Source of the DNA: Diphasiastrum complanatum
Taxonomy: Eukaryota; Streptophyta; Lycopodiopsida; Lycopodiales; Lycopodiaceae
Length of the DNA stretch: 64,000 nucleotides
Direction of reading: 5' to 3'
Assembly (NCBI GenBank): GCA_029204225.1
Contig: CM055115.1
Location: 10,483,855-10,547,854 of the forward strand
The position numbers and the translations under genes are program-made. Of the stretch, positions 32,940 to 62,925 are shown one piece after another; within the stretch, counting starts at the first letter, position 1, and each line of letters begins with the position of its first letter. The notes beneath the pieces were generated by a model that ran no database searches, was not told the origin of the DNA, and worked only from the letters and a program-made list of their open reading frames with translations.

Positions 32940-33760
32940 CCAGACATCGATATGTGGGATCGTTCTCGGGTATCATATACTGCCAATGATACGACAGGTC
33001 GATACCACTTATCAACTTGTCATATCATTTGTTAAAAAAAGAGTTTTTTGTAATAATAGAGTCATTTGTAGATGACACAAATCGATACAAGGTATCTGTC
33101 GTATCAAATTGAAAAATGATATGAGAGATGGATACCGAGAAATCGATATTGGATATCGATATGCCATATCAAATTGACAAATGATATGAGAGATCCATAC
33201 CGGGTATCGATTTCTCATATCATTTTTCAATTTGATAAGGCAGATCGATACATGGTATCAATTTCACATATCAAACTGACGAATGATACTAGAGATCGAT
33301 ACTTGGTATTGATGTCTAGTATCATTTGTAAATTTGATATTATAGATCGATACCCGATATCGATTTTCCATATCATTTTCAGTTTGATATGGCAAATCGA
33401 TATCAAGTATCAATCTGTCGTATCAAATTGAAAAATGATATGAGAGATGGATACCGAGAAATCGATATTGGATATCGATATGCCATATCAAATTGACAAA
33501 TGATATGAGAGATCCATACCGGGTATCGATTTCTCATATCATTTTTCAATTTGATAAGGCAGATCGATACATGGTATCAATTTCACATATCAAACTGACG
33601 AATGATACTAGAGATCGATACTTGGTATTGATGTCTAGTATCATTTGTAAATTTGATATTATAGATCGATACCCGATATCGATTTTCCATATCATTTTCA
33701 GTTTGATATGGCAAATCGATATCAAGTATCAATCTGTCGTATCAAATTGACAAATTTTAG
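32940..33760. repeat. Array of alternating palindromes, copy B
   Basis: Same design as 15610-16080. About 16 units are present because the central part is duplicated. The two 85-codon frames at 33174-33431 and 33493-33750 are identical because of that duplication and are not genes. Confidence 0.88.
33101..33738. repeat. Perfect 319-bp tandem duplication
   Basis: 33101-33419 and 33420-33738 appear identical base for base, with a further partial start at 33739 ('gtatcaaattga'). Copy A has only one such segment. Confidence 0.88.
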
Positions 33761-37200: not shown

Positions 37201-37552
37201 AGATAAATGCGCAAGGATTCCACCATCAGGATCGCAAAAAAAGCAACTATGAGTATTGATATTTTGGATACTTAGATTTTTGTTATTCATATATGTCTAA
37301 TAGTAAACTTGCCAATATGATCATTTTTCTCTTGCAGGTTTATATCCATCCAACATAAATGAATGGGAGTCGAGTGGATCTTTAGCAGATGTGTTAGATG
37401 TTATTGTTACGACATTTCCCACTCAGGGGATCAAAGCTAGGGGAAAACAACATAACATAATACAGCACCACTATGTGTTCAGTGTCGTGCTGTTACGAGA
37501 ATGGTGGTACACGTCTCAAACACAAAGCTAACTAGGGTATCCCTGACATGTT

Positions 37553-38041
37553 CTATCGACCAAGCCGTACCTCTATAGCTAATAGAGGTTGTCCAAGCCT
37601 CTTTAGACATAGCCTATAAAGGGTTATACTCACTTTCCCAGTCTTCTTGAAACTCACAACCTGCACTAATGATATCTTGCTCGCTTGCGAAGTTCCAGAG
37701 GTACCTCCTTCTCGTAGTCTTCTCGAGGATGTCTTCCAGAATTCTTTGATATCATTTAAGTTTCCTAACACATACTCTGGCAATGGATCGGGAAGCCCTA
37801 GATGCAATTCAGTATATTGGGTAAAGGATCCTCCTAACTCTTTCCACGTAGAATCTTCACTCAACTCATACACTATAAGGGAACTACAGTCGGCATTATG
37901 TCTAACTCTGAACAGTCTATCTCCAACTAGGAGATGTCCATGGAAATCTCTGGAATAGAAATAATGATAAACCCTTCCATTTCTACTCAGCTGGCATAAT
38001 TCACCTGGTAGAGCTAGCTCTTGTAATCCTAACCCAGTCAT
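37553..38041 (-). CDS. Antisense ORF 2 of the module (162 codons)
   Basis: Best preserved of three copies. It starts with an ATG that overlaps the stop of ORF 1 as ATGA, an arrangement kept in all three copies. Conserved words: 'RNGRVYHYFYSRDFHGHLL', 'GDRLFRVRHNADCSSL', 'STWKELGGSFTQYTELHLG' and 'LPDPLPEYVL'. The C-terminal 60 residues differ between copies because of frameshifts. It is soluble and aromatic-rich, with no membrane span. It is not matched to any family I know. It could be the continuation of ORF 1 after an ancestral frameshift rather than a separate cistron. Confidence 0.55.
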   Translation of the reverse strand: MTGLGLQELALPGELCQLSRNGRVYHYFYSRDFHGHLLVGDRLFRVRHNADCSSLIVYELSEDSTWKELGGSFTQYTELHLGLPDPLPEYVLGNLNDIKEFWKTSSRRLREGGTSGTSQASKISLVQVVSFKKTGKVSITLYRLCLKRLGQPLLAIEVRLGR

Positions 38042-38295
38042 AACAATTCAGGCCCAGATCTCGTCCTAATAGCACTTTGAAATTCTATGGAGCGTGTTGC
38101 TACCAAGACCCATGAGTTGTTCATTCTGATGTACACAGCTGTTTTGACTCTAAGTCCCTCATTATCAACTTCAATGGCTAAATCCCCAGCCCTTACAATT
38201 CCAATGGTGGTGTCTAATGATATCAGTTCTAGCGAAGCCAATCCAATTATTTTGACTACGGGACAATACCTCCTTGGGTTTGAGGTGTAGGCCAT
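38038..38295 (-). CDS. Antisense ORF 1 of the module (85 codons)
   Basis: It begins 'MAYTSNPRRYCPVVK' in the same place in all three copies. Core 'SLELISLDTTIGIVRAGDL' then 'VDNEGLRVKTAVYIRMNNS' and 'WVLVATRSIEFQS'. Coding similarity also continues upstream of this ATG on the minus strand in copy 3 (58545 to 58150). The ATG may therefore be internal, with the true start farther up. Function unknown. Confidence 0.5.
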   Translation of the reverse strand: MAYTSNPRRYCPVVKIIGLASLELISLDTTIGIVRAGDLAIEVDNEGLRVKTAVYIRMNNSWVLVATRSIEFQSAIRTRSGPELL

Positions 38296-38861
38296 ATACT
38301 AATTGACTGCTTCTCTAACATGTCAAGCTCTCAATATAACTAACACTACTCAATCAATAATCATTCACATAAACCTCTATGCACGTGTGGGCTTCTAACA
38401 TTTCTAGAAGAGGATCAGAATACAGACATCCCTAGTCCTACCATAATCTAGCAGTGGTTATATGCAGGGCTCTGGAACTGCTTGGATCTCTGCTAATCTA
38501 GCAGCACCAAAGATGGACACTATCTATTGTTGGTACATTATTTTTAGGCCTGTAAGGATGGTGATGTACAGATAAGGTGTAGCAGTGTACGGAATATTAG
38601 GACCTATGGGGGGGCTTGGATGAAACATTCTCGATGCATATTGTCATTAGGTAGTGAATCATGGCTGTATTATATAACCCTTTCCAAAGTATTCCTTAAG
38701 TACACTCCTTCCATCTAAGTAGTCATGGGAGTATTTCAAGTGTAGCGTGCAATTCAACACCCATCTTGGTTAGTAGATGGATGACAGTTAATAGTCAAGA
38801 ATCGTGTGTTCCAACGGATTATCTTGACTATTGTGGTTCTAGATGAAGACTAACAATAGGT

Positions 38862-39146
38862 TTGTTCTTAACTCATGTAGTGTGTTCCAACCACAATGAG
38901 CTTAACCTCACTCTTGTGTTCCAAGGAGACGAGGATGACTTGCTTAATTCATTCATCACATTCACTCAAGCAACATTCATCAAAGGCTTTCTCCATGCAT
39001 TCAAACAAAAAGCAATTATTCTGAGCAAACTAGCAATCCTGCTAGAGTCTAAAACTATCATCACCTCAAATCACAACTATCCTGCATTTAACTTTCTCCT
39101 GAGACATAACAATACACTATCTACGAGTTCTTTTAGCATGCTATAA
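38862..39146 (+). CDS. 94-codon ORF of the module, copy 2
   Basis: Same length and about 90 percent the same residues as at 30250 and 58616 ('QGDEDDLLNSFITFTQATF' shared). Role unknown; see copy 1. Confidence 0.35.
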   Translation: MFLTHVVCSNHNELNLTLVFQGDEDDLLNSFITFTQATFIKGFLHAFKQKAIILSKLAILLESKTIITSNHNYPAFNFLLRHNNTLSTSSFSML

Positions 39147-39699
39147 TCTTTCTTTATGAAGACATGGAAGTAAACAATATGGATTAAAGATTTTTCAATA
39201 TGAAGTTGTAATCACTTCTACGACATCTATGACATACACAACTGCATCATCTATAATAGATTGAATACGCAGGTAGCAGAGTGTGAGAACAAAATGAGGA
39301 AAGTTACATGTCAGGTTTTCTTCTCAGGTCTCCTCCAGCTCCAGCCCGCAGGAAATCAGAGACCAATCATGCAAAGGTTAGGCTTCCGGAAGTGTGTAGT
39401 GTTGCTGGAGTTCACCTTGTAGACACCAAGAAGTGTTGCTCCTAAGTGCAGACTGGTTGCCAGAATGACTGATAGTCGTGCAGGATCCAAAGTGAGCTCA
39501 TGCAGTTCACGGACAGCTTGATATCAGCTTCCTCATCAGTCTTCTACAAACTTTGTTTAGCAAGTTTCAATCGACAAAGCAACAGAGACAACATCTTTCG
39601 ATTGCTCCATAGCAGACAACAACGACAGCTCTAGTTCAATTATTCTCACACAGAATATCCATTGCTAATAGCGATTCCCTCAATGGTTTTAGTAGCCTG

Positions 39700-40936
39700 A
39701 TAACAAAGCTCTCACTCTCTCATAGACCAATGTTTGATATTCAATATTCAAACATTTGTGAAATGCACTTGATTAGCAGGAATACGTACAAGTCATCATG
39801 CAGAACTTCCTCATTTATTGAAAAGTCTATACTCAGAACTGCACATATGGATCAGTGCTTTGATAGGAGTCATGAAATTAGTTATCTCATCACTATATAG
39901 AGACAGATAAAAGTATTCAGAGAATCCATATTTCAAAAGTGATGTAAGATCAGTACAGACCATAATTAATACAACTGCTTAAATGCACGGTGAGCACTCC
40001 CATCGATTGAAGGTAATCTCTCAGTTTCACATCAAAGTAGTGATGTCTGCTCAGGCCCGATAGGTGCTGCTTAACGCAATCATGCTCATGTAGGTACTGA
40101 ATCAATGGTCTCTTCAAATGATCGCACCATAAACTGAAACTCGACTAAAAACTGAGTGGTATTCGCACGATCAATGACGATTGTTCTCAGCTGCAGCAGT
40201 AGCGATGGAATTCCTCAAATCTTTCATTGAGGATAGAGAGCAACATGATGATACTTCTGTGAGTCAACACGTGTTCAGAGGATGCTCACGTTGTCAGCTA
40301 GGATTTATCTCCCTATCCCATCTGTCAATGATCATGATCTGCATCAATCGCTCAGTATGCAGCCTCCACAAATATTAATCAAAGTACTTAATGCAACAAC
40401 GTTGGTCAATCAAAATTTGGAGCTCTGAGACTCTGCCCATATCAGCTCTTGAGCAGGAGTAGACTTAACCAGTAATCCATTGTTCTCATAATCAAAGTAC
40501 CATTCCCCTGAAGCTCTACGTACTTGGGTGATCAATACTCTCAGAAACAGGATATTCAACAGTACTGACGTTACTTAGAGTAAATGAGATGCCTTCAACT
40601 ACATATCTCTCCATGAACATATTGAAATCTACCACACTCTCCATCTTTGATATGTGTTGGCTCTGTGACAGTGATTTTGTCAGATCAACTCAAGAAATTA
40701 TTTTGCACGATCCTTTCGGCTCTCGTGAAAGGAAAGTTGGTCACCATCACCCTCAACAAATTACGTAAAGAGGGAATATCACCATCGCACCTCTGCAAGG
40801 CTATTCGATAAAACAAACATGAAAGCATAATGATATGAAAAAACAGAGCTGGTTCTCGATCTGGTTCTGTTTGCGTGAGGCTGGCCATGCATGTATATGT
40901 GTCAATGGATGATGGCCCAACCTTTCGATTTTTCAT
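39700..40936 (-). pseudogene. N-terminal half of the antisense gene, broken
   Basis: It starts at ATG 40936 ('MKNRKVGPSSIDTYTCMAS') with 83 open codons. Shifted frames then read 'MESVVDFNMFMERYVVEGI', 'ASGEWYFDYENNGLLVKST', 'YLWRLHTERLMQIMIIDRW', 'HLSGLSRHHYFDVKLRDYL' and 'SLYSDEITNFMTPIKALIH'. These stretches recur in copy 3 over the shared part, with different lesions. The pieces are clearly protein-like but unassigned. At least six frameshifts or stops are present. Confidence 0.55.
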
Positions 40937-40959
40937 TTCATCCTACCCTTTGACTATTC

Positions 40960-41510
40960 AACATTTCATTTTCAAGGGTTCATGTAGACTTTTTTGGATT
41001 TGTGCCATGTGGACTCTTAAATAGCATTGAAGAGTGTGGATAGGGCCAATGGGCACCCATGACCAAAGTACATGGCCCATGTGCGTCAATGTTCTCATCC
41101 AATAGAAATGTCCCATTTGTTAACATGAGTCAAGGTCTTATGCCCGGTATTTCAAATTCTGTCAGCATCCTTTTAAATTCGGACAAGTATGAAGGTTTTG
41201 CCCATTTTGGTCCCATGGCCCATTGTCCTAGTGTGATATTTGATACTTGTAGTGCCCAATTTTCTGGTGATGGTATTTCTCATTCGGCTTTTGATTGACG
41301 TTTTTGGTCCAAAAAGATCAGTTGGAGAAGAATGTTGGTCTTTGTCAAAAATTCTTGACATTTTCCAAATATCCAGGTGCTCGAAAATAATGGCCAGTCT
41401 CTTACTTCCACATAGGCTGGATGAAAGGAGAACCTGAAAAAAAGTCTCAAACATCATATTATATTAATATAAAATTCGGTTACATTGGCAATCCACCGAA
41501 AATTCGGCAA
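40960..41510. other. Intergenic, nothing recognised
   Basis: Frames of 65-94 codons occur on both strands with no similarity. 'ccaatgggcacccatg' type words hint at small inverted repeats. It separates the module from the host-gene pair. Confidence 0.45.
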
Positions 41511-41514
41511 GGTC

Positions 41515-41649
41515 ATGGATCAAAACAGAAATTACACAGCCATTTCTAAGGCTGATTTAGTTATCAAGCCTCTCGGTAGTCCATTTTGGGTGGACTGGGA
41601 CCCCTTCGGCTATGGCTATACGGGCCAAAATTTTTGCCGGTCACACTAA
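41515..41649 (+). CDS. Small ORF/possible upstream exon, unknown
   Basis: ATG at 41515 opens 44 codons with protein-like composition ('SPFWVDWDPFGYGYTGQNF') ending in TAA. The TAA is followed immediately by a perfect 5' splice consensus, GTAAGT (41650). The next plausible acceptor ('ttcttctctag', ending 41693) would give an intron of only 44 nt, too short for a plant. It may be a decayed first exon of the 41710 gene or a separate fragment. Confidence 0.3.
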   Translation: MDQNRNYTAISKADLVIKPLGSPFWVDWDPFGYGYTGQNFCRSH

Positions 41650-41709
41650 GTAAGTAGCATATTTGATGAAATAGCATGTCATTTCTTCTCTAGTTTAGCC
41701 CGATTTATC

Positions 41710-42761
41710 ATGTCAATAAATTGGCTAACATTTATTCACACTGATATTGGACAGCTACAATATCGAGGTAGAACTACAAAAGATCTAGTTGATAGTGGGA
41801 TTTTTTTTTATGAATCAATGTACATTCTTGATACAAAAGGAAATTTTGGACAAATAGTACCAATTCCATTACCTAGTTTTGAAAGTGATGAATGGATTGC
41901 ACCAGATGCTACGGTTTCAAAATCATTTTGTTGCAAGATATATAATGATGTAAAAAATTCATTAAAAATGAGCACAAGATCAAAAACAGTCATACTGAGT
42001 TGGTTTATTTTCTTGAATATATGTGTGGATTTCTTTTCAAGTGTCAATGTACACAAAACCCCATCGATGTTTGTATGCAAAAATTTATCAGATAGTTTAT
42101 TATCTGAACTTATGGATGAAGGCTGGGACAAGAGATCAGATGGAGAAATAGAATGCAAAATTAAAATATCTTCCATGTGCTTCTGTTATCAAATTGAAAA
42201 ACAAATGTTGAGCTTATGCTTCCATTATCAAAGATGGAAAAAAAATAAAGGTAAATGGGTGCTACTTGATCAAGACTTGGAAGCCAGTGGCCATTCAAAA
42301 CAAAAAAATATTGATATTATATACAATGATGTCGTTTTGACGTGTGTTGAGATGGAAGAAGATTGGAGTCTAAATTACATCAAGCGGGAACTATTGCTCC
42401 TACAAGATGATGTACTTTCAGACTTCAAATTCATTTTCAATGGTAAACTCGTAAGTAACTGTAAACACTCGATCTTTTATGAATAGTTTCAATCAAAACT
42501 TTCTAATACAATCTCTATACTAATCGTAACTCACTTTGTATTAGTTTTATGCAGGTACGTATAAGACATGAGCTCGAGACCAAATGCAGAGATATTGGCG
42601 AAACAATCCAACTTATGGAAGAACATTGAGATTCACTATTAGCAAATACATGCCAATCATCATGTCTTTTTATCAATATAGAAAATTGCATTCCAGTATT
42701 ACACTATGGACACAACTTGATTGTAAGAATCTATATTGATATCAATAAAAGAAACCCATAA
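41710..42761 (+). CDS. Unknown intron-containing gene, possible ubiquitin-like C-terminal part
   Basis: Exon 1 (41710-42450) has 247 codons without interruption. It ends exactly before GTAAGT in phase 0, and a 104-nt intron (42451-42554, ending 'ttttatgcag') leads to exon 2. Exon 2 reads 'VRIRHELETKCRDIGETIQ', reaches an in-frame TGA at 42627, then continues in the same frame for 43 codons ('CLFINIENCIPVLHYGHNL') to a TAA at 42759. The first 200 residues match nothing I know. From about residue 200, 'DWSLNYIKRELLLL', 'DFKFIFNGKLV' and 'ETKCRDIG' resemble the helix, strand and turn pattern of ubiquitin-like folds. That is inference only. The next gene, which converges on it, contains a SUMO-protease-like domain. 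The TGA could be CGA mutated at a methylated CpG. Confidence 0.6.
42451..42554 (+). other. Intron of the 41710 gene
   Basis: GTAAGT donor, T-rich tract and 'tgcag' acceptor. 104 nt, phase 0. Removing it joins two stretches that share a frame, which supports the call. Confidence 0.65.
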
Positions 42762-42830
42762 ACGGGTTGTTTACATGTAAAATGATTGTATCTTTTTTTT
42801 TTTTATGTATCTCTATTTACAAACAGATAT

Positions 42831-44010
42831 CTATTTAATCAAATTTTCTATATTTTCTTTACCAATAATAGGAACTGATAAAGGAACAACTCCTATAATC
42901 TCGCCTTCCTCTGTTTCGGGAAGGGCCTCAATGCCTTTCAAGCCAAGAGGACTCTCTGCTATAATATAGCCTTCCTCTATATTAGAAAGGACTTCTATTT
43001 ATTTTTGATCATATATAATAAGATTTGCATCCTCAGACAACCTGAAAGGCTGTTAAGGCAGGAGCAACTTGCTTTTGAGGGCCCTCGATCTCAGGTGCAA
43101 TGCTTACACCGTTCTCGGCATAGGTTCTGATCAACGCTTGCCGAAATCTATATACATCGTCAGGAGTATACGGCTCAAGAGTGAACTGTCATCACAAAAC
43201 ACGAGAATCAGCAAATTACAAACAATGATAAAAAGGAAATATGAATTAGAATGAAAGGAACTACAAATGAACATAATATTACCTTTTAAATATCTACATC
43301 CACTTGTAAATTATACCACTCAAAAAATAGCTTCGTATTGTACATGACAAACCATGCACAACTAAAAGCGTCCTTTTGCTATACACACTGCATATATAGA
43401 ATAAAAATTAGTAATGTTATGGTAGATTATTTATTTATGCTATGATGATAGATTTGAACTAAAAATGGAATACATGCATATTAGAGATAAATTGAATATA
43501 CCTTGAGAGATCTAATGGTTATCTCTCCAACTGAGGTTGTCGTTGTCGAATGACATCATGAACTAGAGAATCAAATTCTCTATGTGTATTTGCAGCTGAG
43601 TTTAATTTTACATTATTTATCTTTACAGAAAGAATGTTCAGGATCCAATGCCGACTGCAACAACCAAAATACGAATATCGATAAATCCATACTTATGAAA
43701 GCAATCCTTATTTATTAAAACAATGTCGCATGCAACAATCCAGATTAAAGCAACAAAAACAAAAGAGCAATCCTTACTTATTTTCATATGGAATCAAATA
43801 AAATTTCGCCACAGGACTGCATTCGATAAAATACACAGCCTTCTCAAAATTGGCTTCTTTTGCCTTTATCGATCCTATGAAAAAAGGACTAACAACAAAA
43901 ATTATACCATGGGAATCAAAACTAATACTATTCTGCAAAAAAGATCCTCCGGCTTCTACTATTACATTTGAAATTTTTGAAGTTTTATCTTTCAGCTCGA
44001 CACAAAATTT
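42831..44010 (-). pseudogene. Ulp1/C48-like cysteine protease domain
   Basis: Exon 1 ends 'VAKFYLIPYEN' at an AA/GTAAGG donor (43778). After a 123-nt intron, exon 2 begins inside the codon that gives 'NRHWILNILSVKINNVKL'. This reproduces the C48 pattern IPY-x-x-x-HWxL, with the catalytic His. The catalytic Asp, expected about 17 residues on ('LDS'), reads 'LNS', so it may be Asn. Exon 3 has 'QKDAFSCAWFVMY', matching Q-x5-C with the catalytic Cys and oxyanion Gln. Exon 4 carries 'TPDDVYRFRQALI' and an acidic tail. Stops in exons 2-4 disable this copy. The same domain occurs in SUMO proteases and in several plant DNA transposons, so a transposon origin is possible. Confidence 0.78.
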
Positions 44011-44526
44011 GGACCTAATCTAAAGCTTTTACTTGAATCTGAAAAAAAAGATCAAAAATTTGCTAAGAAGATCAATTTTATTAGCTAGATAGGCCTCATA
44101 TTGGTTATAACGGTCAGAATCAAAATATACTTGGGCAGGATCTTATGAAATTCTTACAAAAAGATTATGTACAGGAGCAGAAAAAGAAATAGATACAAAA
44201 TTTACAGATTTCTCTATTATTTTGTCGAGCTCCTCTTGGGTAATCAACACTTTTGGTGAAGAAACCTGTTGAGGAGTTGGATGAATAACAGCAAGAGAAA
44301 GGGGTGATGATTCTTGATCTGAATCAGATTCTCCAGCATCTAACTCAAAGCTCAAGACGATACGGGGTCTCTTGGTCGAGATAACTGTAGGAGGAAGAGA
44401 AGCAGTTGGCCTTCGAGATCCAGCCTTCTTGGGGATAGGCTGCTTCCTCTTCCTCGTAGAAGTAGTCGGCAAATTGGTTCTATCCAGAGGTAGGTCTCTG
44501 GAGGTGCTAGCGTTACCAACATGCAA

Positions 44527-44788
44527 ACCATAATAACCATCCCAAAGTCTTCTGAGAATGACGAAATCTTTTGGCATGATGGTGACACGCTTAGCATGCA
44601 CTGCCAAAAGACAAGTATCCTCAAAAAACTGGGACAAAAGATCTTCTGCAACAGCCTGTAAGGCCTGCATGGTTGTCACGGCAAAACGAACATCTAGCCC
44701 AAGTGACAGAGTGACATTCCTTACAGATTGGCCGAAAGGAGCTCTAGGGATCAACAGTTCAACTCTGGAGTTTTCTAATCTCCCTCAG
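44527..44788 (-). pseudogene. Histone H3 fold domain of the fusion
   Basis: Minus-strand 'LREIRKLQ' then, after a small frameshift near 44764, 'ELLIPRAPFGQSVRN', 'LDVRFAVTTMQALQAVAED' and 'FFEDTCLLAVHAKRVTIMPK' match canonical H3 (LREIRKYQ, ELLIRKLPF, DLRFQSSAVMALQ, FEDTNLCAIHAKRVTIMPK). Loop 1 has the length of ordinary H3, not the longer loop of CENH3, though 'LIPRAPF' and a divergent N-terminus recall CENH3. The tail lacks the canonical ARTKQTARKS sequence. An ordinary H3 ends within about 5 residues after this fold; here about 128 more residues follow before the first stop. Identification of the fold is secure; its subclass is not. Confidence 0.9.
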
Positions 44789-45071
44789 CCAGACCTGCTT
44801 CCTACCACATCTACAGCCAAAACTAGGGGGAACACGAGAAGAGGGCGCTTGAGATCGATACCAGAACTGAATATCAGTTTTGAGCGCAACATATACAGAG
44901 AATATTTTAAGAAATGAGATGCGCGCTCAAAAGCGATATTGGACTGACAGCGGTATCGGCCTCGAGTGCACTGTGAGAAAGCGGACGATTAATTGATTTA
45001 AGGGCGTGCCTGAGAGTGATATTGGGAGCTAAAAACGAAAATTTTGTGAAAAAAAATGAAAATTCCGAAGA

Positions 45072-45081
45072 CTTATATATA
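45072..45081 (-). promoter_or_regulatory. TATA box of the H3-Ulp1 gene
   Basis: The minus strand reads TATATATAAG. An A/T- and C/T-rich leader without an ATG follows for about 180 bp to the proposed start at 44892. This fits a plant core promoter. Confidence 0.5.
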
Positions 45082-45094
45082 CAAAATTTTTGCA

Positions 45095-45440
45095 CGTGTG
45101 AAAAGATGATGGAAGACACATGTCGTCATTTGACACATCCATGTGGAATGTCCGTACTGACAATGATAACCTCATTATGAGGCCACGTGGGTTGGGACAT
45201 GCGCACAAATCCCTTTTCGACGCTTGTCATTCTCACACGTGACAGATGTTAGATCAATCATTGTCTGTATGGCATATTAATTCTACCCAATCATACATCG
45301 ATACGTGTTCCATGGTAAATCCTCCACATGTGTAAAAGCCATTCACAATGAATTTCATTGTTATCAAACCACTCGGTTTGTCATCCTATTCTGTGATGAA
45401 TGGACAACCTTGGCTTTATCAATCAAACACAAGTGTACAT
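45095..45440. other. Upstream region of the H3-Ulp1 gene and gypsy leader
   Basis: Contains several 'cacgtg'/'acacgtg' words (about 45093, 45182, 45235, 45303), which in plants are G-box-like. No coding frame before the gypsy acidic region. Confidence 0.4.
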
Positions 45441-45762
45441 TGGAAATCCAGAGAGCTCAGACTGGTGAGACCAATAACCGAGGTAAGCCAGCAGAACAAA
45501 TCATAACCTGGAGTCGTGACAAATATGAAGGTGAAACTCCTTTGTCCGACACCAGCTTTACATCAGAAGAATCTTCGTATGTCTTGAATATTTTTTCCAA
45601 TGAATCTGATATTGAAGTGTAGTACTTTGAATGTTATGAGAATGCTGATGACGAAGAATTCTTCGATGTCTGCGACGCTGAAGCGGATGTTTCGTATGAA
45701 GAAATTAACGTTCAGACACGAACTCGAAAGAGTCTGACGAATCTGAACACGAATTTGGTAAC

Positions 45763-46796
45763 ATGAACCAGGTTGACGACAAGAAAACGTCTGTGGAGTC
45801 AACCATGTGCAAAATTCATGGCCATACCAAGGCCAATATGAAAGAAGGTATCATTTTACCAGATTGTACTAAACTGATTGAACTTGCACCTGGCAGATTT
45901 GTGCATGTTTCAAAGTCACTTGGAGAATCGGAGTTAGTGGAATTCACTAAACTATTGAAGGAGTATCAAGATGTTTTTGCCTGGTCGCTCGACGATTTGA
46001 AGGGTATACCTACAGAATTTGGAGAGCACCGAATTGATCTTAAGGAAGATGCTATACCTATTCGACATATATAGTATCGTCTCAATTCTAAGTTCCCTCT
46101 CATGCTTAAGAACGAACTTAACAAGCACCTTAAGGCAGGTATAATCTATCTCGTCTTAAGTAGTGAATGGGTTTCACCCATTGTTGTCATCCCAAAGAAG
46201 AAGACTGGCAAAATACGAATATGCTAGGATTTCCGCAAACTCAATGTTGCCACAAGGAAGGACCATCATCCTCTGCTTTCACTGATTCCATCCTAGATCA
46301 GGTTGCTCTTCAAGAGCGTTATAGTTTCTGTGACGGCTTTTCTGGATATAATCAGGTTGGAGTGCGAAAGGAGGATCGTTCAAAGACCACATTCACTACA
46401 GATTGGGGCACTTATGCCTACAACAAAATGCCCTTTGGTCTTTGTAACGCTCCAGCAACTTTTCAGCAAATAATTATGTTAATTTTTGCTACCTTCCTGA
46501 GAACTTTTCTCGAAATATTTATTGATGATTTCTGTGTATATAGTGATATAAAGACACACCTACAGAAGCTGAAATTAACATTGCAACGGTGTCGAGATAC
46601 TTGTTTATCTCTTCATCCAGAGAAATGTTTTTTTGGTATGAAAGAAGGAATATTGCTTGGACACAGAATATCTAACAGAGAAATAGAAGTCGACAAAGAT
46701 AAAGTTGAGCTTATAAAGAATCTCCGGATACCAACCAATTTACGTGAACTAAGAGCTTTCTTAGGACATGTTGGCTATTACAGGAGATTTATTTAA
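45763..46796 (+). pseudogene. gypsy G2 pre-RT and reverse transcriptase
   Basis: Pre-RT, 45763-46074 ('FTKLLKEYQDVFAWSLDDL', 'FGEHRIDLKED'). A TAG at 46072, then 'WVSPIVVIPKKKTGKIRIC' with a TAG before DFRKLN. From 46310 the frame is open: 'FCDGFSGYNQVGV' (first Asp with SGY), 'MPFGLCNAPATFQ', 'LEIFIDDFCVYS' (catalytic pair) and 'LHPEKCFF'. All catalytic residues are present, but the domain is split by stops and a frameshift near 46200-46310. Confidence 0.87.
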
Positions 46797-57190: not shown

Positions 57191-57419
57191 CTAAGTGGAA
57201 AACAACATAACAAGATACGCACCACTATGTGTTCAGTGTCGTGTTGTTACGAGAATGGTCGTACACGTCTCAAACACAAACCTAACTAGGGGATCCCTGA
57301 CATGTTTTGTCGACCAAGCTGTACCTCTATAGCTAATAGAGGTTTTCCAGGACACTAGAGACATAGCCTATAAAGGACTATAATCACTTCCTCAGTCTTC
57401 TTGAAACTCACGACCTGCA

Positions 57420-58545
57420 CTAATGATATCTTGCTCGCTTGCGAAGTTCCAGAGCTACCTCCTCCTCATATTCTCCATGAGGATCTCTTCCAGAATCCTT
57501 GATGATATCATCTAAGTTCTCTAACACATACTCTAGCAATGGATCGGGAAGCCCTAGATGCAATTCAGTGTATTGGGTAAAGGATCCTCCTAACTCTTTC
57601 CACGTAGAATCTTCACTCAACTCATACACTACAAGGGAACTAGAGTCGACATTATGTCTAACTCTGAACAGTCTATCTCCAACTAGGAGATGTCTATGGA
57701 AATCCCTGGAATAGAAATAATGATAAACCCTTCCATTTCTACTCAACTGGCAGAAGTCACCTGGTAGAGGTAGCTATCCCAATCCTAACCCAGTCATAAC
57801 AGTCCAGGCCCAGATTCGTCCTAATAGGACTTTGAAGTTCTATGGAGCGTGTTGCTACCAAGACCCATGAGTCATTCATTCTAATGTACACGGATGTTTT
57901 GACTCTAAATCCCTCATTATCAACTTGAATGGCTAAATCCCCAGCCCTTACAATTTCAATGGTGGTGTCTAATGATATCAGTTCTAGTGAAGCCCATCCA
58001 ATTATTTCGACTACGCGGCAATACCTCCTTGGGTTTGAGGTGTAGGCCATATACTAGTTGACTGCTTCTCTGACATGTCAAGCTCTCAATATAACTAACA
58101 CCCCTCAATCAATAGTCATTCACATAAACATCTATGCGTGTGTGGTCTTCCAACATTTCAAGAAGAGGATCAGAATACAAACATCCCTAGTCCTACCATA
58201 ATCTAGCAGTGGTAATATGCAGGGCTCTGGAGTTGCTAGGACCTCTGCTAATCTAGCAACACCAAAGATGGACACAACCGTTGTTGGTACATTATTTTCA
58301 GGCCTGTAAGGATGTTGATATACAGATAAGGTGTAGCAGTGTACGGAATATTAGGACCTATGGGAGGGCTTGGACGAAACATTCTCAATGCTTATTGTCA
58401 TTAGGTAGTGAATCATGGCTCTATTATATGACCCTTTCCCAAAGTATTCGTTAAGTACACTCCTTCCATCTAAATAGTTATAGGAGCTGTTCAAGTGTAG
58501 CGTGAATTTCCCAACCATCTTGGTTAGTTGATGGCTGACAGTCAA
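57420..58545 (-). pseudogene. C-terminal half of the antisense gene, copy 3
   Basis: From 58545 a frame of about 130 codons with a single stop reads 'KMVGKFTLHLNSSYNYLDG', 'SYNRAMIHYLMTISIENVS' and 'VSIFGVARLAEVLATPEPC'. Another frame gives 'LEMLEDHTRIDVYVNDY'. ORF 1 follows (58050, 'MAYTSNPRRYCRVVE'), then ORF 2 (57746-57420, 'RNGRVYHYFYSRDFHR' to 'GRDPHGEYEEEVALELRKR'). It shows that the reading frame originally extended well upstream of ORF 1. No known family. Confidence 0.55.
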
Positions 58546-58615
58546 AAGTCAAGAACCGTGTGTTCCAACGTGTTATCTTGACTATTGTGGTTCTAGATGA
58601 AGACCGACAATAGGT

Positions 58616-58900
58616 TTGTTCTTAACTCATGTAGTGTGTTCCAACCACAGAGAGCTTAACCTCACTCCTATGTTGCAAGGAGACGAGGATGACTTGCTCA
58701 ATTCATTCATGACATTCACTCAAGCAACATTCCTTAAAGGCTTTCTCCATGCATTCAGACAAAAGGCAATCATTCTGAGCAAACTAGCAATCTTGTTAGA
58801 GTCTAAAACTATCATCACCTCAAATCACAACTATCCTGCATTTAACTTTCTCTTGAGACATAACAATACACTGTCTACGAGCTATTTTAGCATGCTATAA
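58616..58900 (+). CDS. 94-codon ORF of the module, copy 3
   Basis: Third copy of the frame at 30250 and 38862, same length, about ten replacements. Shares 'LLESKTIITSNHNYPAFNF' with copy 2. Confidence 0.35.
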   Translation: MFLTHVVCSNHRELNLTPMLQGDEDDLLNSFMTFTQATFLKGFLHAFRQKAIILSKLAILLESKTIITSNHNYPAFNFLLRHNNTLSTSYFSML

Positions 58901-58949
58901 TCTTTCTTTATGAAGACATGGAACTAAACAGTATGCATTAAAGATTTTT

Positions 58950-60287
58950 CAATATGAAGTTGTAATCACTTCTGCGACATCTATGACATACACAATTGCA
59001 TCACCTATCACAGATTGAATATGCAGGTAGCAGAGTGTGAGAACAAAATGAGGAAACTTACATGTGAAATTCTCTTCTCAGGTCTCCTTTAGCTCCAGCC
59101 TGCAGGAAATCAGAGACCAATCATGCAAAGGTTAGGCTTCCGGAAGTGTGTAGTGTTGCTGGAGTTCACCTTGTAGACAGCAAGAAGTGTTGCACCTAAG
59201 TGCAGACTGGTTGCCAAAATGACTGATAATTGTGCAGTATCCAAAGTGAGCTCATGCAGATCACGGATAGTTTGATATAAACTTCCTCATCAGTCTTCTA
59301 CAAACTGTGTTTAGCAAGTTTCAATCGACAAAGCAACAGAGACAACATCCTTCGATTGCTCCATAGCAGATAGCAATGACAGCTCTAGTTCAATGATGGC
59401 TCTTCAACGATAATCAGACATACATTCTCAATAGGTCCCCATATCAGTGATGGAGTTAACAATTGCTCAAATCAGTCCTAGGATTTTGAATTATTCTCAC
59501 TCAGGATATCCATTGCTAATAGCGATTCCTCACTGGCTTTAGTAGCCTGATAACAAAGCTCTCACTCTCTCATAGACCGATGTTTGATATTCAGTTTTCA
59601 AACATCTGTGGAATGCACTTAATTAGAAGGAATACGTACAAGTCATCATGCAGAACTTCCTCAAAATCATTGAAAAGTCTATACTCAGATTTGCACATAT
59701 GGATCAGTGCTTTGATAGGAGTCGTCATGAAATTAGTTATCTCGTCACTATATAGATACAGATAAAAGTATACTGAGAATCCATACTTCAAATGTGATGT
59801 AAGATCATTACAGACCAGTACTCATAATACAACTGCTTAAATGCACAGTGAGCACTCCCATAGAGATCGATTGAAGGTAATCTCTCAGTTTCACATCAAA
59901 GTAGTGATGTCTGCTCAGGTCCGATAGGTGCTGCTTAATGCAATCATGCTCATGTAGGTACTGAAACAATGGTCTCTTCAAATGATCGCACCATAAACTG
60001 AAACTCGACTGAAAACTGAGTGGTATTCACACTATGAGGATGGTCAATGACGATAGTTCTCAGCTGCAGCAGTAGCGAAGGAATGCCTCAAATCTTTCAT
60101 GGAGGATAGAGAGAAACATTATGATACTTATGTGAGTCAACGCACGTTCAGAGCATGCTCATGTTGTCGGCTAGGATTTATCTCCCTATCCCTTCCGTCA
60201 GTGATCATGATCTGCATCAATCGCTTAGTATGAAGCCTCCATGAATCTTAATCAAAGTAGTTAGTGCAACAACGCTGGTCAATCAGA
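58950..60287 (-). pseudogene. N-terminal half of the antisense gene, copy 3
   Basis: The frame 59791-59591 is open for 66 codons ('LYLYSDEITNFMTTPIKAL', 'CKSEYRLFNDFEEVLHDDL'), where copy 2 has a stop. Upstream, 'HLSDLSRHHYFDVKLRDYL' and 'VIDHPHSVNTTQFSVEF' are readable in shifted frames. It is truncated at 60287, so the start seen in copy 2 is missing. Confidence 0.5.
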
Positions 60288-62925
60288 ATTTGGACAATAA
60301 CATCTCTACAATTATAACCATATATCTCTCATCAGATTCCTCAAACCCATAATTTGAGTCTTCAAATGAATCTGTATCTAGAGGTGATTCCAAACGGTCT
60401 TGATGTGCTAGAAAGGAGTGAGGCATATCTATACTTTTTGGAATATTGATAGTCACCATAGTCCAACCGATGTTGTTCATGAGCTTTGCCACACAATATG
60501 ACATTCTATATAAGGACACAGACCAACTTGGAGCACAAAAGGATTCAATAATGCTACTCACACCTCGCCAATGCTTTGCTTTCTTTTTGTGATCTAGCTT
60601 ACATGACACAAAATGTTTTGTCGATTTTTCACTATCCTCAAAACACAACCTCAAGAGTTTGAATTTGCTTTGCATGCACTCGTTGACATCATTCGGGGAC
60701 TTAGCATTGTAGAGAACAAATAGAATAGGCTGCAAATTTGGAACAATTATATTGTTCTCTTTCAAAGGAGTTGCCAGTTTGTAGTAACCTTAAAAAATAG
60801 AACACCATACATCACGCATTGCTTTGATGCTTGATTTGATACCTTATTTTTCTATTGTGATCCAAAAAGAGAACAATCACACAGACTTTGTGCTGTGGCA
60901 TGAGAGTTGTCAAAAAATAGTGGCGCACCATTGACAAAATGTAAATAAAATCTAGAAACTCCAAGTTATTAAATATATACAATGTGGGACGCTCCCATAG
61001 CGAAGAAGGAAGTGTCATAAAACTTGATTCCACAACAGATGGCCTCCACGTTTTTAGAACTTTTTACGTTATAGAAAAACCTCCATTCGGTGTTACTAGA
61101 GTTCCTAGTGTCATGCTCAATATTGTGGGCAGCAAGATATTTTTGTTTTATATTTCTACAACCACTCTCAAGGGTTTAGGTATAACACCAGTCAATTTTG
61201 AAGTTATACCTTTTCCTTTGCCATAGTGTGCTCTAACCCAATTTCGACAAAAAGTCACATCAATGACTTTTGAGAGTTGTTTTATGCTCTCTTTGTTGTA
61301 ATCCATATCTGAAGGCAAGTCTTCTTCTGTAGTAAGCAAATACTTTACAACACTTAGTGCAGCCATCTCACGAACCATCAAGAGAACTCCTTCATCAATG
61401 TGTTTTTATTTGTTTTTTCTTCCAAAATACAATTCTTCATTTACAAGCTTCTTTAGGATACGATTGCACATGGCGTCCGGCATATACCTCAAACATCTGA
61501 ACAACCGAATAGGTATGGCTTTGTTTTTTGTCTTCCTCGATCCCAATGCAGGTTCGTTGTAGGAGATCCAATCATTCACATAAGATTTCATGACTTGCAT
61601 AAAATTGTTGAATGCTTCATCTGAACAGAAGATTATTATTGTGTACTTCTCAAATTTGTCATACAACGATGTAATCGTGTGTTGTACTGACAAAAATCCA
61701 GCAATACTACTGCCAAGGACCCCGTGCAAACCGAGATAAAATGTTCTCAACTATTGCTCAGAATTTAGCTTCACTCCTCTAACAAAGTGTGGTCAACTCA
61801 ATGAGATCCATAGATCACATGCACGGTCCATGATTTCCGGTATACTGCTCTCTTTTCTCTTCTCTTCCGGCTCGTGATTGAGTCTGTTAGATTCAAGAAT
61901 GTAACAAGATGCATTCTTGAATATACATATCTTGGCATGCACGGACCTAAAAGTGGCATCAAATATCCCAGGATGTATCCTATTTTGATTCAATGCAACC
62001 TTTGCCAATTCATCACATGCATATAAAAAATGTTGACTGTCGATAGGTTCAAAAATACAATATAACAAAAAGCAATTTTAGCACAATCCATCCAATCTGG
62101 ATCCAGGATTGAGATCCACCTCCTTGTGGTAAGTGTTTTTGTAGACCTGCTCATTCTCTGCTCTAACAACACGCATGAATTCGCTATACATCTTTTTAAA
62201 CATAATTGGTGCTTCGAAAGTAATTTTTTCCTGGTCATCTTTCTTGAATGAAATTGGCCTCAAAGTGACGTTCATCGATGCGGGTGGTGGACTTTTGGGT
62301 TGTTCGAATTACCAGCGAACGAGTGATCCAAAGCTCGTTGGTTCGTGAAGAGTGAGGCACACTGGATATTTTTGCTTTCCATCCAGAACATAGTATTTTT
62401 ATCTCATATGTATCCGATGTCAACAATTACAAAATTGTCGAGATTGACATTTGCATCACCCTCAAACTCAGGGACTTGCTCTTCCTTGACCATATGCCCT
62501 TCATCATCAGATACATTGCATTATGAGCCGGATAACATTCCCGATTGATCCACTCTCGGCTCCATTGGAACAATTTCCATTTCTGTTACATCTTCAATCA
62601 TAGAAACTGCAGCAGATCCAATAATTGCGGCATCAGAAAAAACACTTTGTATTCCATCAGCATTCATTAATAGCTTATCTTTTTTACATAGGGCCATCAA
62701 GGGAACCCTCATAGTTATGAGTAGATTCATTTGAATCATGAGTTGGTGGCTCAACAGTAAAATGTGCAATGTCCACACAAGACAAAATAACATGATGCTT
62801 AGAACCATCTTGGCTGCGAGTCATAAACTCAGCTTTGTCGAAAAAAAAATTTGTCCTGAAGGTAGATACCACGGATGGCACAAAGAATTTCAACATTGTC
62901 CATGGAGAATTCGGACTCGCCAATT
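60288..62925 (-). pseudogene. Large unknown gene, decayed, minus strand
   Basis: A chain of open minus-strand stretches with protein-like composition runs for 2.6 kb, broken by about ten stops and shifts. It starts 'MASPNSPWTMLKFFVPSVV' (62923). Later stretches include 'KKMYSEFMRVVRAENEQVY', 'HPGIFDATFRSVHAKICIF', 'YDKFEKYTIIIFCSDEAFN', 'LFRCLRYMPDAMCNRILKK', 'RNWVRAHYGKGKGITSKLT' and 'AKLMNNIGWTMVTINIPKS'. The last 160 codons (60765-60283) are open and end in an acidic segment. It may be a single protein of about 850 residues or several exons. I recognise no domain. A short relative lies at 36880-37200. Confidence 0.5.

Follow-up and report, generated by a model that had tools for sequence, protein, structure and literature searches.

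A divergent histone H3 fold with an open C-terminal extension and a possible C48-like remnant downstream, in a probably decayed gene of Diphasiastrum complanatum

Can a histone H3 fold and an Ulp1-type SUMO protease have been joined in one protein? The question is raised by a minus-strand locus of the window, by which we mean the whole 64,000-nucleotide stretch of Diphasiastrum complanatum DNA that was analysed, where the first-pass annotation had proposed a single gene encoding both. Histone H3 normally ends soon after its third helix. The presence here of an H3 fold with an unusual open C-terminal extension is solidly established, and a fusion of this fold to a C48 protease is plausible.

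The histone fold (Table 1) is recognised by the core-histone profile PF00125, which matches residues 5-80 of a minus-strand open frame of 213 residues, running from 44784 to 44146, with 65.6 bits (E 6.3e-18, cutoff 26.4), and by a PDB search with this ORF, in which the best chains are those of H3 in solved nucleosomes (E 1.1e-14). On alignment, 35 of 75 residues are identical to chicken H3 without internal gaps, and H3 gives the highest score; the corresponding values are 33/74 for a CENP-A chimera and 34/75 for Arabidopsis CENH3, each with a gap of two residues. The fold is a divergent H3. The assignment to CENH3 was rejected, as the longer loop 1 of CENH3 is absent, the loop being of the H3 type, and the score to H3 is higher; some CENH3-like residues are nevertheless present, LIP, AED and KDF resembling Arabidopsis CENH3. 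The window gene shares with H3 and its variants, CENH3 included, the histone fold, with a loop 1 of the length found in H3; the long open C-terminal extension and the lack of a recognisable N-terminal H3 tail set it apart from them. The AlphaFold2 model of the ORF, built on seven aligned sequences, contains three histone-like helices at a mean pLDDT of 52.3, and the best Foldseek match of this model is 8xjv_Y, a chain of a nucleosome entry (48% identical, E 0.037), with none of the matches at E <= 0.001; this outcome is no more than consistent with a histone fold.

The remnant of the αN helix lies in a frame of its own that then runs into a stop, and the fold itself is read in another frame (ELLIP..., from 44760), so that the fold announced by the first-pass annotation is real but its start at 44788 takes in residues that are out of frame. 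The frame of the fold is closed upstream by a TGA at 44787-44785, its first methionine is residue 39, within the fold, and no N-terminal H3 tail could be recognised by eye in the three frames upstream. Further upstream, a CACGTG beginning at 45098 lies near the TATA-box-like candidate promoter, both being matches to consensus patterns only.

On the C-terminal side, the H3 frame stays open as far as a TAA at 44145-44143. The linker contains the basic stretch KRKQPIPKK at 44451-44425 and a helix predicted with low confidence near QEELDKIIEKS. In simulated sequences built from the trinucleotide statistics of the window, a stop-free run of 213 residues occurs in none of 300 sequences of 3 kb and in one of 60 sequences of 64 kb. 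The linker was probably coding, because such a run is rare in simulated sequence. The continuation of the frame through a basic linker towards the protease, as first described, is correct up to this TAA and not beyond it, since three stops (44145-44143, 44031-44029 and 44022-44020) precede the PYEN that closes the next putative exon.

Table 1. Coordinates of the features of the H3-fold gene in the window
Feature	Position	Strand	Basis or remark
Candidate promoter, TATA-box-like TATATATAAG	45072..45081	minus	consensus pattern only
H3 αN helix remnant LREIRKLQS	44762..44788	minus	frame differs from that of the fold; resembles LREIRRYQKS of H3
H3 histone fold (α1-α3)	44527..44784	minus	PF00125 match, PDB H3 chains, chicken H3 identity
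Open linker, 127 residues	44146..44526	minus	open frame; basic, then acidic
Putative first part of C48-like domain, ending ...FYLIPYEN at GT donor	43778..44019	minus	ORF, splice site
Putative His-motif exon, NRHWIL (HWIL 43650-43639)	43502..43654	minus	LNS where C48 has the Asp motif
Putative Gln-Cys exon, QKDAFSC (43378-43358)	43283..43387	minus	TAG close upstream of the motif; second stop further on
Last exon, FTLEPYTPDDV...	43036..43185	minus	80-88% identical to the end of O6H91_Y440400 (P0007)
Possible C-terminal tail	42834..43040	minus	shifted frame, one stop; 50% identity between its first part and the end of P0007

Downstream of the linker, the landmarks of the proposed splicing are found in part. 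GT..AG sites at 43777/43655 link YEN to NRHWIL, and the QKDAFSC motif is present, both as the first-pass annotation had it. The precise splicing through to the cysteine is not as it had described: if the His exon extends to the donor with the best score, it is interrupted by an in-frame TAA (43521-43519), and QKDAFSC itself is preceded by a TAG. Of the 23 splice pairs in 43540-43330, four lead in frame to QKDAFSC, all of them with stops. Widening the interval to 43640-43330 gives 17 in-frame joins out of 63, four of them stop-free; in these four, part of the His exon is lost and at most 38 residues separate the histidine from the cysteine.

Is this downstream half a C48 protease? The query was assembled with stops read as X and with exons joined by hand at the proposed GT..AG sites, the joins being guided by the same His and Cys motifs as those scored. 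Against the joined exons, the Peptidase_C48 profile PF02902 gives 13.3 bits over profile positions 87-192 (E 0.075 for a search spanning 24,736 models), below the Pfam cutoff of 20.7, and a shorter joined piece, also below this cutoff, gives 12.7 bits. As the first-pass annotation had already proposed C48, the chance for this model alone is far smaller than that E-value. In Pfam scans, neither the exon at 43778..44019 alone nor the reversed control matches any family, and C48 is no longer matched once the Cys exon is left out of the joined piece; two of ten shuffles match some family (E 0.036 and 0.25), in neither case C48. DUF5070, an unrelated family, scores 14.1 and 15.7 bits, above C48. 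The search of solved structures with the read-through of the protease half returns no protease, only nine weak, chance-like matches (E 0.44-0.81).

Pairwise alignment is more favourable with yeast Ulp1, where histidine and cysteine fall in register and 2 of 500 shuffles do as well, than with SENP1, where the cysteine is not reached and 28 of 500 shuffles do as well. The distance between these two residues is 60 in the window, against 66 in Ulp1 and 70 in SENP1. Of the catalytic residues, His, Gln and Cys are present in order, the Asp position reads Asn by eye, and the residue after the cysteine is Ala and not Gly, again by eye. Because the Asp motif reads LNS, the encoded enzyme may have been inactive. 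The window exons thus share with the Ulp1/SENP SUMO proteases (PF02902) the HW.L and Q-x5-C motifs in their proper order, but they differ from them by a score below the family cutoff, a probable Asn for Asp and stops in the likeliest exon model. We conclude that there is modest support, from the sub-threshold profile match and from the aligned motifs, for a C48-like remnant downstream of the H3 fold: of the C48 protease first announced, the His and Gln-Cys motifs in register with yeast Ulp1 are retained, and the profile match of the second half stays behind DUF5070.

The window copy is probably a pseudogene, because the αN helix is out of frame, the likeliest joins contain stops and the tail, compared with P0007, has slipped into another frame and carries a stop. 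Relatives were sought in protein databases. The H3 ORF retrieves six proteins (P0001-P0006, of 278-351 residues) that combine histone folds with long extra parts; P0003 is extended on both sides of the fold and the other five of the six carry long N-terminal parts. The Pfam domains listed for the six are PF00125 and, in one of them, PF15511, with C48 in none. The full read-through retrieves the same six proteins and P0007, which is also the only protein retained among the 1214 candidates of a C48-centred search (E up to 10). P0007 is the D. complanatum hypothetical protein O6H91_Y440400, to whose end the last exon is 80-88% identical depending on the stretch aligned, the similarity starting at the predicted acceptor; this second occurrence means that the last exon is not unique. 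P0007 has the last exon in common with the window gene, whereas its first 327 residues have no reported match to that gene and the protein has no listed Pfam domain. An intact H3-C48 protein, or any paralogue with both domains, was not found in these searches, which cover annotated proteins and miss unannotated copies of elements; a second copy of the gene is not present within the 64-kb window, and no H3-C48 fusion is reported among the titles and abstract openings listed from the open-licence literature. A viral origin was rejected, since scans of IMG/VR, which detect close relatives only, gave no relative of the H3 ORF, of the exon read as 43774-44019 or of the last exon. As a separate observation, the last exon follows in P0007 on 327 residues that are unrelated to the gene, and this protein ends in ECNFLY, which is read at 42693-42676 of the window; it is a chimeric transcript or an annotation error.

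The best explanation that we can offer, held with slightly less than even confidence, is that the locus is a decayed, intron-containing copy of an H3 + C48-like gene belonging to a repeated and perhaps mobile family, the intact form of which would be a fusion protein. The H3 and C48-like pieces lie on the same strand and in the expected order, with a common frame as far as PYEN. The intact protein would comprise an H3-type fold, a basic and acidic nuclear linker, an Ulp1/C48-like cysteine protease and a short C-terminal module. The pairing of the H3 fold with H4, or its handling by H3 chaperones, would bring the protease to chromatin, where the removal of SUMO or of a similar modifier would favour the expression or the spread of the element. 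We infer a single transcript, deSUMOylation and mobility as parts of this scheme. Of the single H3-C48 protein of the first-pass annotation, the H3 fold and the open extension are upheld and a weak likeness to C48 remains, but the copy looks decayed and the protein searches yield no intact relative.

The separate-genes explanation, according to which a divergent H3 pseudogene with a lineage-specific C-terminal tail adjoins an unrelated, decayed ULP-like element and never formed a fusion, is a serious if doubtful competitor. It accounts for the stops at three places between the halves and for the decayed Gypsy and Copia pieces nearby, and H3-fold proteins with long extensions do exist (P0003 on both sides, the other five N-terminally), none of them listing C48; the shared strand and frame of the two halves argue against it, as does the fact that 15 of the 112 GT..AG pairs in 44300-43960 would remove the stops lying between the H3 ORF and PYEN. 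A more specific form of the preferred fusion reading, in which a lycophyte mobile gene family would fuse an H3 fold to an ULP1-like protease, so that an element could place a SUMO protease within the nucleosomes of its own chromatin, is unlikely. Least probable of all, that the downstream exons encode no protease and that HW and Cys motifs arose by chance in an unrecognised H3-fold protein would agree with the C48 score below cutoff and the higher DUF5070 score, with the PDB search devoid of protease matches and with the unconserved Asp and the Ala for Gly (by eye), but against it stand a histidine and a Gln-x5-Cys that are ordered, near the expected spacing and in register with yeast Ulp1.

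Could the family be mobile? In plants, CACTA and MULE elements are known to carry ULP1 (C48) domains as passengers, and KI-MULEs lack TIRs (PMC2528002, PMC13317346). The Kaonashi elements (KI-MULE/KIU) and the CACTA-ULP elements of flowering plants likewise carry an ULP1 (C48) domain, but no H3 fold is mentioned in the passages on them in the two papers (PMC2528002, PMC13317346), unlike the situation in the window gene. Another difference is that none of the 14 ORFs scanned next to or near the gene encodes a recognisable DNA-transposon transposase, MULE and CACTA included, and only the reverse transcriptase and integrase of retroelements are recognised in them; decayed Gypsy and Copia pieces surround the gene. 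A TIR element is not supported: 24 inverted pairs, all weak, occur in 40200-46200, and the only one to flank the gene (17 nt, 88%, 42427-42443/45339-45355) is short and has no matching target-site duplication of 4-11 nt. The suggestion of a transposon protein in the first-pass annotation gains a little from the second occurrence of the last exon, in P0007, but these 14 ORFs yield no DNA-transposon transposase, and the inverted pairs give no convincing ends.

In Arabidopsis, SUMO is already linked to the loading of CENH3 by way of αKNL2 and ULP1d (PMC12903445). If an ULP protease tied to a histone fold were true, it would indicate chromatin as the target of the ULPs borne by elements and would make the question of their target testable.

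Other features of the window deserve mention. No RNA family reaches the Rfam gathering threshold in it. The plus strand contains at 41650-42483, in a tail-to-tail arrangement with the H3 gene, a stop-free frame of 278 residues, without a Pfam match and with only a chance-like NCBIfam match; none of 60 simulated sequences of 64 kb has a frame as long. A block of 3 kb is repeated at 37465-40421 and 57219-60294, about 19.8 kb apart and with 86-96% identity; two of its minus-strand ORFs, which were scanned, have no Pfam match. Finally, the plus strand carries at 33120-33747 a tandem repeat of two ORFs of 103 residues each, identical to one another and at a distance of 319 bp.
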